A stretch of DNA of 64,000 nucleotides, taken from NCBI GenBank assembly GCA_900215285.1, contig OCMG01000004.1, forward strand, positions 2,526,001 through 2,590,000, given 5' to 3'. Position numbers and translations under genes: made by a program. The DNA comes from Ensifer adhaerens (GTDB lineage Bacteria > Pseudomonadota > Alphaproteobacteria > Rhizobiales > Rhizobiaceae). Of the stretch, positions 38,116-43,937 are shown one piece after another. How positions within the stretch are numbered: the first letter of the stretch is position 1; every line of letters starts with the position of its first letter. The notes beneath the pieces were generated by a model, which was not told the origin of the DNA, did no database searches, and saw only the letters and a program-made list of their open reading frames with translations.

Positions 38116-38322
38116 CTATTTGCGAAGAAGCGACAAGCCTTCTTCTTCGCGGCCTTTTCCGCGTTCCTGCCTCTCGCGAAACTGAAGATAAGCGTCGTAG
38201 TCCTTTGCTATGTGAGCCGCTGCTTTCCCGAGCAGTTCGTTCGCCGTGATCCCATTAATTGCCGCAGCAGCGTGGACCTTCTCTTCTATATGATCAGGTA
38301 TGTCGATTACGGTGGTGCCCAT
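38116..38322 (-). CDS. Antitoxin-like ribbon-helix-helix protein, no toxin partner seen
   Basis: About 68 residues: a short beta strand (TTVIDIPDHIEEK), a helix-turn-helix-like segment (VHAAAAINGITANELLGKAAAHIAKDY), and a charged tail rich in Arg and Glu. This resembles RelB/CopG-like antitoxins. No toxin frame is visible on either side: downstream is the patatin gene and upstream an inverted repeat element. It could be an orphan antitoxin or a small regulator. Start ATG 38322 rather than 38352, because the family begins at the beta strand. Confidence 0.5.
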   Translation of the reverse strand: MGTTVIDIPDHIEEKVHAAAAINGITANELLGKAAAHIAKDYDAYLQFRERQERGKGREEEGLSLLRK

Positions 38323-38422
38323 GCTTCCGATCCATTTGAAATCAGAACTCACATGGGGCGCATGATGCGTTTAAAAGTTTCCTCTCGCAAACCACAAGTG
38401 AAGGCGCGTGCTGCTTTTCACT

Positions 38423-38581
38423 CCGTCATCCTCGGGCTTGTCCCGAGGATCTGCTACGGTCTGTCTCGCCGCATCGTGAATGGCTTGAAACTTGAGTTTG
38501 TTTCAGCTTCGGCGGCTCTGGCCGGACCGTTGCATTCTAGTTTTCGTCAGTAGATCCTCGCCACAGGGGCGAGGATGACGG
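38423..38581 (-). mobile_element. REP-ended element, copy 1 (inverted relative to copies 2 and 3)
   Basis: A 159-bp element. Read on the minus strand it starts CCGTCATCCTCGCCCC, continues with GGATCTACTGACGAAAAC and ends GTAGCAGATCCTCGGGACA...GAGGATGACGG, matching copies 2 and 3. Each end forms a small hairpin. Here the left hairpin arms are CCTCGCC/GGCGAGG where the other copies have CCTCGGG/CCCGAGG, which are compensating changes. There is no coding content. Confidence 0.75.
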
Positions 38582-40676: not shown

Positions 40677-40808
40677 GGAATGCCAAAATATAAGACTTGA
40701 GGAAAAGCAATTTTCCTTGCGGAGCTGCCGCAATCGCTGCAAAAGCTCCGGCCAACAGATGAAGATGACAAGCTGCCGGTTCTTGAGCCGGCAAGATTGG
40801 AGCACACC

Positions 40809-42278
40809 ATGGTCGCCGTTCAGGAAACCATTGATCAGGTCCGCAAGATCGACGTGGATCAATATAAATACGGCTTCGAGACGATGATCGAATCCGACCG
40901 CGCGCCCAAGGGTCTGTCGGAAGATATCGTGCGTTTCATTTCTGCCAAGAAGCAGGAGCCGGAATGGATGCTGGAATGGCGTCTGGAGGCCTATCGTCGC
41001 TGGCTGACGATGGAAGAGCCGACCTGGGCGCGCGTCGATTATCCGAAGATCGATTTCAACGACATCTATTACTATTCCGCGCCGAAGTCGGCCTCCGGCC
41101 CGAAGTCGCTGGACGAGGTCGATCCGGAACTGCTCAAGACCTATGAAAAGCTTGGCATTCCGCTGCGGGAACAGGAAATTCTCGCTGGCGTGAAGCAGTC
41201 GAAGATCGCCGTTGACGCCGTGTTCGACAGCGTTTCCGTCGTCACGACTTTCAAGGAAGAGCTGTCCAAGGCCGGCGTCATTTTCATGTCGATCTCGGAA
41301 GCGATCCGCGAGCATCCGGAGCTGGTGAAGAAGTATCTGGCCTCCGTCGTGCCGGTCACCGACAATTACTATTCGACGCTCAATTGCGCCGTCTTTACCG
41401 ATGGTTCCTTCGTCTATGTGCCGAAGGGCGTTCGTTGCCCGATGGAGCTGTCGACCTATTTCCGCATCAACGAGAAGAATACGGGCCAGTTCGAGCGCAC
41501 GCTGATCATCGCCGAAGAAGGGGCTTACGTCTCCTATCTCGAAGGCTGCACTGCGCCGCAGCGCGATGAAAATCAGCTGCACGCGGCTGTCGTTGAACTG
41601 ATCGCGATGGACGATGCCGAGATCAAGTATTCCACCGTCCAGAACTGGTATCCGGGCGACAAGGACGGCAAGGGCGGCATCTACAATTTCGTAACCAAGC
41701 GCGGCGACTGCCGGGGCAAGAATTCCAAGATCTCCTGGACGCAGGTCGAGACCGGTTCGGCGATCACCTGGAAATACCCGTCCTGCATCCTGCGCGGCGA
41801 CGGTTCGCGCGGCGAGTTCTACTCGATTGCGGTGTCCAACGGCCATCAGCAGGTCGATAGCGGCACCAAGATGATCCATCTCGGCAAGAACACGTCGAGC
41901 CGCATCATCTCAAAGGGCATCTCCGCCGGCTTCTCGCAGAACACCTATCGCGGCCAGGTGGCGATCAACCGCCGTGCGGACAACGCCCGCAACTTTACCC
42001 AGTGCGACTCGCTCCTCATCGGCGACAAGTGCGGCGCGCATACCGTGCCTTACATCGAGGCGAAGAACGCGTCGGCGCAGCTGGAGCACGAGGCGACTAC
42101 CTCGAAGATCTCCGAAGACCAGCTCTTCTACTGCCTCGCCCGCGGCATTCCGGAAGAGGCAGCCATCGCGCTGATCGTCAACGGGTTCGTGAAGGACGTC
42201 ATCCAGGAACTGCCGATGGAATTTGCGGTCGAAGCGCAGAAGCTGATCGGGATTTCGCTTGAGGGTAGCGTGGGGTGA
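40809..42278 (+). CDS. sufB: Fe-S cluster scaffold component SufB
   Basis: The scaffold subunit of the SufBCD complex, where Fe-S clusters form. The 489-residue length is normal, and core blocks such as [42 protein letters not shown] and [22 protein letters not shown] are conserved. The ATG at 40809 has GGAG 8 bases upstream. Unusually, 903 bases separate its stop from sufC, because a repeat-bracketed GIY-YIG gene has been inserted. Confidence 0.97.
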
Positions 42279-42305: not shown

Positions 42306-42464
42306 CCGTCATCCTCGGGCTTGTCCCGAGGATCTACTGACGAAAACGCGGGTTAGGCGGTGCAGCGTGAATGCTGAGGGTTTAAGTGACTGCCTCATGT
42401 GGTCCATTCACCGAGCGGGCTTGGTAAGCGTAGCAGATCCTCGGGACAGGCCCGAGGATGACGG
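42306..42464 (+). mobile_element. REP-ended element, copy 2
   Basis: 159 bp, starting CCGTCATCCTCGGGCTTG and ending GGCCCGAGGATGACGG. Both termini fold into hairpins (CCTCGGG/CCCGAGG and its mirror). Internal blocks ACTGACGAA, CGGTGCAGCG, GTCCATTCAC and GCGTAGCAGATCC are shared with copy 3. It lies 27 bases after the sufB stop and just upstream of the GIY-YIG gene, in direct orientation with copy 3. Confidence 0.8.
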
Positions 42465-42482
42465 AGAAGGGGAGCGCATCGC

Positions 42483-42824
42483 ATGACCGGCTTCGTCTAC
42501 ATGATGTCGGACAAGCCTCGTGGGGTGATCTACACCGGTGTGACCAGCGACCTCCATGGGCGCAGTTGGGAACACCGGAATGGAGTGAATGAGGGTTTTA
42601 CGGCGAAGTATCAGGCCAAATATCTGGTCTGGTTCGAGAGCCATCCGAATATCGTTCTGGCGATCCGGCGGGAGAAGGCGCTGAAGCGATATTTGCGGGA
42701 GTGGAAGATAAGTCTGATCGAGGGGCTCAATCCGACGTGGATGGATCTGTTCGAGAAGATTGACGAGATGGAGAATATGTATCGACCACACCCGAATACG
42801 CGGATGTGGGGTGATTATAACTAA
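42483..42824 (+). CDS. GIY-YIG endonuclease-domain protein
   Basis: A 113-residue single-domain GIY-YIG nuclease of the UPF0213/YhbQ-like group: FVYMMSDKPRGVIYTGVTSDLHGRSWEHRNG covers the two GIY/YIG-type tyrosines and the catalytic Arg27, with a downstream Glu and a basic stretch (IRREKALKRYLREWK). The role of these small nucleases is not well defined. Its GGGGAG ribosome-binding site starts directly after repeat copy 2, and copy 3 lies 48 bases after its stop. It sits inside the suf operon in the same direction and must be co-transcribed unless it has its own signals. Confidence 0.85.
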   Translation: MTGFVYMMSDKPRGVIYTGVTSDLHGRSWEHRNGVNEGFTAKYQAKYLVWFESHPNIVLAIRREKALKRYLREWKISLIEGLNPTWMDLFEKIDEMENMYRPHPNTRMWGDYN

Positions 42825-42871
42825 GGGTTTGGGCTGAGACTAATCTGACTGATACGGCGACCAAACCCACG

Positions 42872-43029
42872 ACGTCATCCTCGGGCTTGTCCCGAGGATC
42901 TACTGACGAAGACGAGAATGAGACGGTGCAGCGAGGGAGCTGCGGGTGAAGCGGGCGGCGCGGCAGGGTCCATTCACGGAACGGCTTTGGCGAGCGTAGC
43001 AGATCCTCGGGACGGGCCCGAGGATGACG
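42872..43029 (+). mobile_element. REP-ended element, copy 3
   Basis: About 158 bp, beginning ACGTCATCCTCGGGCTTG and ending GGGCCCGAGGATGACG, similar to copy 2 with many internal substitutions. A partial extra end (GGCCCGAGGATGACGG, 43037-43052) follows. Together with copy 2 it brackets the GIY-YIG gene between sufB and sufC. Confidence 0.8.
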
Positions 43030-43181
43030 ACGTTGAGGCCCGAGGATGACGGAGGCGAGGGCCGACGTTAACGGAGGTCGGGGTGCTGCCCCGCTGGAAA
43101 ACAAACATGCCGGTCATTTTCCGGCGACAGGAATATCAAACAGGCGGCCTTTGATCCGCCCGATGAACAGGAAGAAATACG

Positions 43182-43937
43182 ATGCTTGAGATCAGAAACC
43201 TTCATGCGCGGATCGCCGAGGATGGCACCGAGATCATTCGTGGTTTGAACCTCACGGTGAAGGCCGGGGAAGTGGCGGCCATCATGGGGCCGAACGGGTC
43301 GGGGAAGTCGACGCTGTCCTATATCCTTTCGGGCCGCGAGGACTATGAAGTCACCGAGGGCGATATCCTCTATAACGGCGAGAGCATTCTGGAGCTCGAT
43401 CCGGCCGAGCGTGCGGCGAAGGGCATTTTCCTCGCCTTCCAGTATCCGGTCGAAATTCCGGGCGTTGCCACGATGCAGTTCCTCAAGGTGGCACTGAATG
43501 AGCAGCGCAAGCAGCGTGGCGAAGCGGAGCTGACGACGCCGGACTTCATGAAGCGGGTCAAGGATGCGGCGGCACATCTGAAGATCGCGCCGGAAATGCT
43601 GCGCCGTCCGCTCAATGTCGGCTTCTCGGGTGGCGAGAAGAAGCGCGCCGAAATCCTGCAGATGGCGCTCCTGGAGCCGAAGCTTTGCGTTCTCGACGAG
43701 ACCGATTCCGGCCTCGACATCGACGCGCTGAAGATCGTCTCGGATGGCGTCAATGCGCTGCGGTCGCCAGACCGCGCCGTGATCGTCATCACGCACTACC
43801 AGCGCCTGCTCGAACATATCGTGCCGGATACGGTTCACGTTCTCTACAAGGGCCAGATCATCAAGTCGGGCGACAAGTCGCTTGCGCTTGAACTCGAAGC
43901 CAACGGCTATGCCGACGTGATCGAAGCTGCGGCTTGA
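43182..43937 (+). CDS. sufC: Fe-S assembly ATPase SufC
   Basis: The ABC-type ATPase of SufBCD. The 251-residue protein has Walker A GPNGSGKST (about 33-41), signature SGGEKKRAEI (about 149-158), Walker B LCVLDETDSGLD (about 168-179) and the switch His in VIVITHYQRLL. It lies directly before sufD. The preceding 357 bases hold repeat copy 3, so its 5' leader in the operon mRNA is structured. Confidence 0.97.
   Translation: MLEIRNLHARIAEDGTEIIRGLNLTVKAGEVAAIMGPNGSGKSTLSYILSGREDYEVTEGDILYNGESILELDPAERAAKGIFLAFQYPVEIPGVATMQFLKVALNEQRKQRGEAELTTPDFMKRVKDAAAHLKIAPEMLRRPLNVGFSGGEKKRAEILQMALLEPKLCVLDETDSGLDIDALKIVSDGVNALRSPDRAVIVITHYQRLLEHIVPDTVHVLYKGQIIKSGDKSLALELEANGYADVIEAAA

Follow-up and report, generated by a model that had tools for sequence, protein, structure and literature searches.

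The palindromic repeats known as CGTC REPs occur mostly in the alpha-Proteobacteria, where they are widespread, and include the dRS3 repeats of Neisseria; in the accessible part of the survey by Di Nocera, De Gregorio and Rocco (2013, PMC3733652) they are said to "apparently lack a dedicated transposase". In the window analyzed here, the whole stretch of 64,000 nucleotides from Ensifer adhaerens, two elements with hairpin ends enclose a small GIY-YIG nuclease gene inside the suf operon. An earlier note on this DNA had proposed that the enzyme spreads the hairpins as RAYTs do with their REPs, that repeats and gene form one mobile module, or that the enzyme has been domesticated for the processing of suf mRNA.

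The block between sufB and sufC

The block separates sufB (40797..42278, + strand, matching the equivalogs TIGR01980 and PRK11814) from sufC (43182..43937, + strand, matching TIGR01978), and the gap between the end of sufB at 42278 and the start of sufC at 43182, read directly, is 903 bp, as the earlier note had it. Its description of two hairpin-ended elements in the same orientation around a 113-residue GIY-YIG gene was likewise confirmed: REPIN 1 lies at 42306..42464, the gene at 42483..42824 on the + strand, and REPIN 2 at 42869..43033. REPIN 1 consists of a CGTC hairpin, a spacer and an inverted CGTC hairpin, with arms of 33 nt that are 94% complementary and 93 nt apart; REPIN 2 has the same orientation and spacer type, and its arms of 36 nt are 89% complementary and also separated by 93 nt. 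Identity between the two is 85% at the left end (75 nt) and 89% at the right end (63 nt), and each element is a complete inverted pair on its own, with the CGTC tags outermost. A half REP (families D3, I7 and I8), the remnant of a single arm, adjoins REPIN 2 at 43036..43052.

The window hairpin is made up of the CGTC tag, a 9-bp stem (ATCCTCGGG/CCCGAGGAT) and a 5-nt loop (CTTGT). According to the accessible text of PMC3733652, CGTC REPs have a CGTC, TGTC or CCTC tag, a stem of 8–9 bp starting with AT, a loop of 4–5 nt and, in "most" of them, a CCA tail, and they form inverted dimers; the window copies match in tag, stem and loop, and differ by a CTA or CTG tail in place of CCA. No Rfam family matched the window elements up to an E-value of 0.1.

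With up to 3 mismatches, the 27-bp REPIN end was found five times in the window (maximum 0 in 100 shuffles) and the 31-bp end 17 times in the source genome (0 for the reversed control pattern), which holds one GIY-YIG gene of this kind (E ≤ 0.001). Six more copies in this genome (L004–L009) are inverted pairs at other sites. One of them (L007), at 38423..38581 after conversion to window coordinates, belongs to the same REPIN family and has no adjoining GIY-YIG gene; it shows an exact 27-bp match at 38425–38451, its inverted partner is present, and it is about 70% similar to REPIN 1. This copy overlaps the end of a 113-codon ORF (38212–38553) that is doubtful as a real gene.

A minimal Slx1-like nuclease

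The sole Pfam domain in the 113 aa of the encoded protein is PF01541 (E = 1.1e−9, residues 3–75), and the family profile matched the PDB entries 1zg2 (E = 2e−13), 1ywl (E = 4e−9) and, more distantly, the SLX1 homologue 7wme (E = 6e−4). As a stand-alone domain with solved UPF0213 members as its closest structures, the protein is assigned to the Slx1-like (UPF0213-type) group. The domain was modelled confidently with AlphaFold2 (mean pLDDT 87.7, pTM 0.81), and Y6, Y17, R27, H31 and E64, which we take to be the catalytic residues of the GIY-YIG domain, are invariant in 15/15 aligned proteins. Database records label members of the family as "excinuclease ABC subunit C" or "GIY-YIG nuclease family protein", and three of the proteins had no match among the defence families of PADLOC or the phage families of PHROG.

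With PF01541 alone and no Y1/HUH domain, the window protein is not a RAYT, nor does it qualify as a GIY-YIG homing endonuclease (HEase cluster), as Pfam showed no C-terminal NUMOD-type modules. A RAYT as the mobiliser was rejected for ten repeat-bearing genomes, the source genome included, none of which (0/10) has a PF01797 (Y1) match at E ≤ 1e−5. The window protein shares the minimal stand-alone GIY-YIG domain with 1zg2 and 1ywl; for the prokaryotic Slx1-like group a role in repair was predicted, and no link to REPs is described in the accessible part of that work (PMC1564403), whereas the gene studied here is flanked by them.

Association of the gene with repeats

Within the genus, homologues were found in 5/6 genomes, nine in total, all of which (9/9) have repeats on both sides; these repeats fall into three families, one for each of three protein groups. 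Two larger samples were then compiled, each from part of the better-scoring matches listed. Sample 1 comprised 157 loci, mostly from Rhizobiaceae, 156 of them with long enough flanks; duplicates (L014, L017, L018, L043, L044, and L048) and repeat-only loci (L002–L009) were left out, and the seeding with the window gene led to an over-representation of the suf clade. Sample 2 comprised 83 loci, 81 of them outside Rhizobiaceae, taken from a phylum search in which 153/396 genomes had a match; L216 and L219 were dropped, as they were already in sample 1. The left and right flanks of each gene were compared by a local similarity score, with thresholds (20 and 28) of our own choice.

Among the matches listed, 117/156 genes of sample 1 shared a flank repeat at a score ≥ 20 and 110/156 at ≥ 28, compared with 1/38 controls. 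Looser-gap controls gave 2/87 positives, one being a second GIY-YIG gene (L114) and the other a gene (L077) located some 560 bp away from a GIY-YIG gene. In sample 2, shared flanks were present at 59/83 genes among the matches listed (by rank: order 18/21, class 21/30, phylum 20/30, same family 0/2), and the controls at ≥ 20 amounted to 0/8 for order, 0/23 for class and a not entirely clean 4/21 for phylum, with none for the two same-family loci. When 700-bp flanks were compared in 40 shared genomes, shared repeats were found at 47/60 GIY-YIG genes vs. 0/29 ParE toxin genes (30 loci, one of which was too short), and a strict CGTC hairpin was present on both sides of 37/60 and 2/29, respectively. 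Homologous GIY-YIG genes are thus associated with repeats, the opposite of what the earlier note had named as a refutation. Its question of whether the same ends always flank the gene is answered positively for 117/156 genes and negatively for 39/156, which lack a shared flank repeat (both among the matches listed).

Strict CGTC hairpins within 300 bp on both sides were detected at 118/239 GIY-YIG genes, including the window gene, vs. 1/239 with block-shuffled flanks, and at 2/140 ordinary control genes with gaps; counted by side, a hairpin was present at 300/478 real and 15/478 shuffled ones. Considering the nearest pair at these 118 genes, the tags were outermost in 56, 30 showed the order that dimers on both sides would give, and 32 had other arrangements; in many relatives, single hairpins and not pairs bracket the gene. 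The nearest strict upstream hairpin, present at 146/239 genes, most commonly ended 20–24 bp before the start (27/146), measured from the profile-aligned gene start. The hairpin finder, with tags restricted to CGTC, TGTC and CCTC, returned 427, 55 and 33 of these, respectively, in the flanks of the 239 genes, and the stem began with AT in 409/515 tallied hairpins. Several other clades have longer loops than the window hairpins, and the tail is CCA in many clades, with CTA or CTG taking its place in that of the window.

Eight of the 33 matches in a plasmid collection were examined, and in three of these records strict hairpins bracket the gene (Neisseria gonorrhoeae L321, Azospirillum L324, and Shinella L327). 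In the other five, a convincing hairpin is missing from at least one side: hairpins are one-sided in Photobacterium (L325) and Sinorhizobium meliloti (L326), Rhizobium tumorigenes (L328) has one on one side and a doubtful one opposite, and no bracketing pair was found in Planktothrix (L322) and Spirosoma (L323). In L321 (NZ_CP119140.1), twelve CGTC hairpins of dRS3-like form make up an array around an unannotated GIY-YIG frame, which may be connected with the repeat arrays of Neisseria. The GIY-YIG relative without CGTC hairpins in L322 (Planktothrix agardhii plasmid p1) is located between an MmeI-type restriction-modification gene and the DISARM gene drmA.

GIY-YIG is not mentioned in the main text of PMC3733652, and no enzyme associated with CGTC REPs is reported in the accessible part of this survey, whereas here a small GIY-YIG gene adjoins the repeats. 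Within the open-licence PMC literature, as far as its texts were accessible, no paper linking GIY-YIG proteins with REPs, RAYTs or inverted repeats was found among those listed, and such a paper could exist elsewhere.

Repeat type follows nuclease type

The 117 repeat-flanked genes form 6786 pairs, 6368 of which have no neighbouring protein in common. Over these 6368 pairs, protein identity and repeat similarity were correlated (r = 0.515), a value reached by 0/1999 permutations (maximum 0.133), in which kinship was handled only by removing the pairs with a shared neighbour. The fraction of pairs with similar repeats (score ≥ 20) was 0.00 (rounded) at < 40% protein identity and 0.66 at ≥ 80%. 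In genomes with at least two genes that are < 60% identical, the nearest homologue from another genome had the more similar repeat in 35 cases, and the paralogue in the same genome in 5; for this count, DNA comparison was the sole means of removing pairs whose outer flanks resembled each other. Mapped on the protein tree, repeat classes required 18 changes vs. a mean of 34.6 when shuffled; because single-linkage classes are too coarse (82/117 fall in one class), we relied on the pairwise identity test. A different palindrome family, of the form CCTCATCCTGAGG...CCTTCGA, flanks further nuclease groups (L013, L015, L016, L154, L155, L159–L169, and L171; loci assigned by classes R1 and R2, others by eye).

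The association tests and this clade specificity, both drawn from sequence, support the earlier proposal that the GIY-YIG enzyme is tied to hairpin repeats as the counterpart of a RAYT. We consider the block to be a RAYT-type REP system with a different enzyme, in which the Slx1-like GIY-YIG nuclease acts as the dedicated partner of CGTC REPs, and we give this reading a probability of about 0.7. In the accessible parts of PMC2817692 and PMC3116915, RAYT genes are always flanked by two inverted REPs, and a third of them adjoin REP dimers or mosaics. The likeness extends to the placement of the gene within inverted REPs or dimers, the dispersed gene-less REP pairs and a repeat that tracks the enzyme type, while the RAYT system differs in its Y1/HUH enzyme and GTAG tag, as opposed to GIY-YIG and CGTC. 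RAYTs are also single-copy according to PMC3116915 (accessible part), whereas some genomes here carry near-identical genes at two sites.

Repeat abundance and gene presence

Across 198 Rhizobiaceae genomes, window-type repeats averaged 13.8 copies where a GIY-YIG match was present (106 genomes) vs. 5.1 where there was none (92 genomes; p = 9e−9), and in the genus-matched comparison (genera with both kinds of genomes) copies were higher with the gene in 29, lower in 8 and tied in 4. A second repeat type reached ≥ 5 copies in 17/106 genomes with the gene vs. 1/92 without. The repeats are hence not equally abundant in genomes that lack the gene, the other outcome that would have spoken against the hypothesis, and the expected correlation of copy number with the gene holds within most of the genera compared, yet it fails in 13/92 gene-less genomes with ≥ 10 window-type (T/A-type) repeats (e.g., 85 in G008, 75 in G174, and 48 in G091). 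A laxer gene search gave one doubtful match in these 13 repeat-rich genomes (G041, E = 0.0076) and, in 13 other genomes, a match in G034 at 6.8e−5. One reading of the repeat-rich genomes is that the gene was lost after the repeats had spread. Broken or internally deleted genes flanked by intact repeats are found at L031, L032 and L041.

A unit that ends at the CGTC tags

The boundaries of the unit were analyzed in locus pairs with a related gene and no shared neighbour. Using a cut-off of 8 bp, which was our choice, homology ended within this distance of the CGTC tag at 68/228 left and 44/166 right ends, compared with an average of 16.6 and 11.0 for jittered ends (at most 28 and 21). In 17/564 locus pairs, homology stopped at the tags on both sides; the pairs are not independent of each other because they share 128 loci. 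In genome G189, L061 and L075 have a 381-bp CGTC...GACG unit in common that is about 92% identical and lies in unlike outer DNA; for an empty-site comparison at L075, the relatives in its genus were too diverged. Three other genomes (G136, G003, and G144) each hold a pair of genes at two sites whose proteins are 94–100% identical. Homology that stops at the CGTC tags beyond chance in unrelated surroundings argues, on the basis of alignments, for the suggestion that the repeats and the gene constitute one mobile module.

Simple REP-gene-REP units (n = 42) measure 346–518 bp, and the dispersed REPINs about 80–165 bp in those measured. None of the simple units (0/42) has an exact direct repeat of ≥ 4 nt at its ends, which fits repair or recombination, and an insertion sequence with target-site duplication was rejected on this count. 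Direct matches of 2 nt at the unit ends were found at a frequency of 0.31 vs. 0.20 in shuffles (6/1000), and longer ones (3–10 nt) were not above shuffles; target duplications of very few bases may therefore exist. Outside the tags there is weak inverted complementarity (4-nt, 0.43 vs. 0.32 shuffled, 1/1000; e.g., L218, L124, and L126); longer terminal repeats or a preference for certain targets could account for it.

Free-standing GIY-YIG homing endonucleases exist as a kind, and a selfish element consisting of one nuclease gene is plausible here too. By this route, a selfish GIY-YIG gene would invade REPINs that were already there, cutting empty ones and being copied in by recombination between REP arms, while the REPs themselves would be amplified by another process. 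Such recombination would also place the homology boundaries at REPs, and it agrees with the missing direct repeats in the 42 units, with the existence of GIY-YIG homing enzymes (HEase; accessible part of PMC1564403), and with gene-less REPs in the very same sufB-sufC gap of G112 (two), G001, G013 and G047 (one each). However, it leaves unexplained by itself why repeat abundance tracks the gene, the protein lacks the extra DNA-binding modules of the known homing enzymes, and its repeat ends belong to a dispersed family; we regard invasion of this kind as unlikely.

A further possibility is that the nuclease clears structures, i.e., that it protects replication by resolving REP cruciforms and is retained where these repeats are numerous. 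Slx1 is structure-specific, its prokaryotic relatives are predicted to act in repair (PMC1564403, accessible part), the family profile matches an SLX1 homologue in the PDB, and a correlation between gene and repeats would likewise result. This role predicts neither a gene bracketed by its cognate repeats nor a tag-to-tag unit in unrelated surroundings, and it appears improbable to us.

The sufB-sufC gap as an insertion place

On the protein tree, 31/243 loci are linked to suf (among them L172–L196 and L324, the latter in Azospirillum lipoferum), all 31 in the same orientation as the suf genes; 29 were seen to lie within the sufB-sufC gap, and the remaining two are truncated at a contig end. 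This share is inflated because the sample was seeded with the window gene, which does not affect the recurrence. The remaining 212/243 loci have no suf gene within the stretch examined. The suf-linked proteins need five changes on the tree, at least four of them forced by supported branches, and their repeats differ. Junctions without the gene, which the earlier note had suggested looking for in relatives, do occur: the gap measures just 65 bp in two genomes of the same genus, G004 and G005, and no GIY-YIG gene was found in it in 19/26 genomes by comparison with the window protein, the gaps without the gene being inspected by eye only. Some gaps are long (323–858 bp) and hold other DNA (G001, G007, G008, G020, G024, G031, G047, G055, and G081).

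The sufB-sufC gap is a recurrent insertion place in alpha-Proteobacteria, used by several GIY-YIG clades with different REPs. The suf clade has kept its position across Rhizobium-type genomes, so movement would be rare or old, which speaks against our preferred explanation. Judging from its orientation, the window unit is probably co-transcribed with suf.

That the nuclease and its hairpins process or tune suf mRNA as a domesticated accessory was suggested by the note, and the shared orientation of all suf-linked loci, the 29 cases between sufB and sufC and the occurrence in Azospirillum would favour it. Nevertheless, the suf-linked genes do not group in a single clade and carry different repeats, no GIY-YIG gene was found in most of the gaps compared, broken copies occur in the gap (L031, L032, and L041), and the majority of loci have no suf gene nearby, so that this role is unsupported and seems very improbable. 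We take the suf position to be a transcribed gap in which such genes settle repeatedly, and not a sign of a suf function. The least probable explanation, passive hitch-hiking of a nuclease unrelated to REPs that are merely abundant in the intergenic DNA around accessory genes, could draw on REPs at 48/280 control sides and 10/58 ParE sides and on the 13 repeat-rich gene-less genomes, but it is already contradicted by the clade specificity (r = 0.515; 35 vs. 5) and the absence of shared flanks at ParE genes (0/29), and it also disagrees with the scarcity of two-sided hairpins at ordinary genes (2/140) and the 20–24 bp mode in upstream spacing.

Proposed mechanism and implications

What comparative sequence analysis establishes is the association, its clade-by-clade specificity, and a tag-to-tag unit in unrelated surroundings; together they suggest that the partner so far missing for a widespread bacterial repeat family is the GIY-YIG enzyme. 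If the nuclease is indeed the dedicated partner of CGTC REPs, the CGTC-tagged palindromes would be the ends of the element, the full element would be REP-gene-REP with the CGTC tags outermost, and the dispersed REPINs would represent short derivatives depending on the nuclease in trans. The enzyme would recognise a single-stranded or cruciform hairpin and cut at its base, in the CGTC tag or close to it, after which host repair or recombination may place copies of the unit at new sites or inside repeats that are already present. Copying is the least secure part of this scheme, since enzymes of the GIY-YIG family hydrolyse DNA but, to our knowledge, do not join strands; their chemistry alone leaves insertion unaccounted for, which counts against our preferred explanation.

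At slightly better than even odds, the principle would extend further: small GIY-YIG proteins, each dedicated to its own repeat, would mobilise the entire CGTC REP superfamily in Pseudomonadota, Neisseria dRS3 included, as an independent invention of the RAYT/REPIN kind without an HUH enzyme. The 2013 survey of CGTC REPs (PMC3733652) left the spreading agent open, and a small candidate enzyme makes this question testable. If the wider reading is true, these elements would form a class of mobile DNA that is bounded by REP hairpins and encodes a GIY-YIG nuclease as its sole protein. With the candidate enzyme as the partner of the repeats, a large and poorly characterised family of GIY-YIG proteins would gain a function, and REP/REPIN parasitism would have arisen more than once, with unrelated nucleases.
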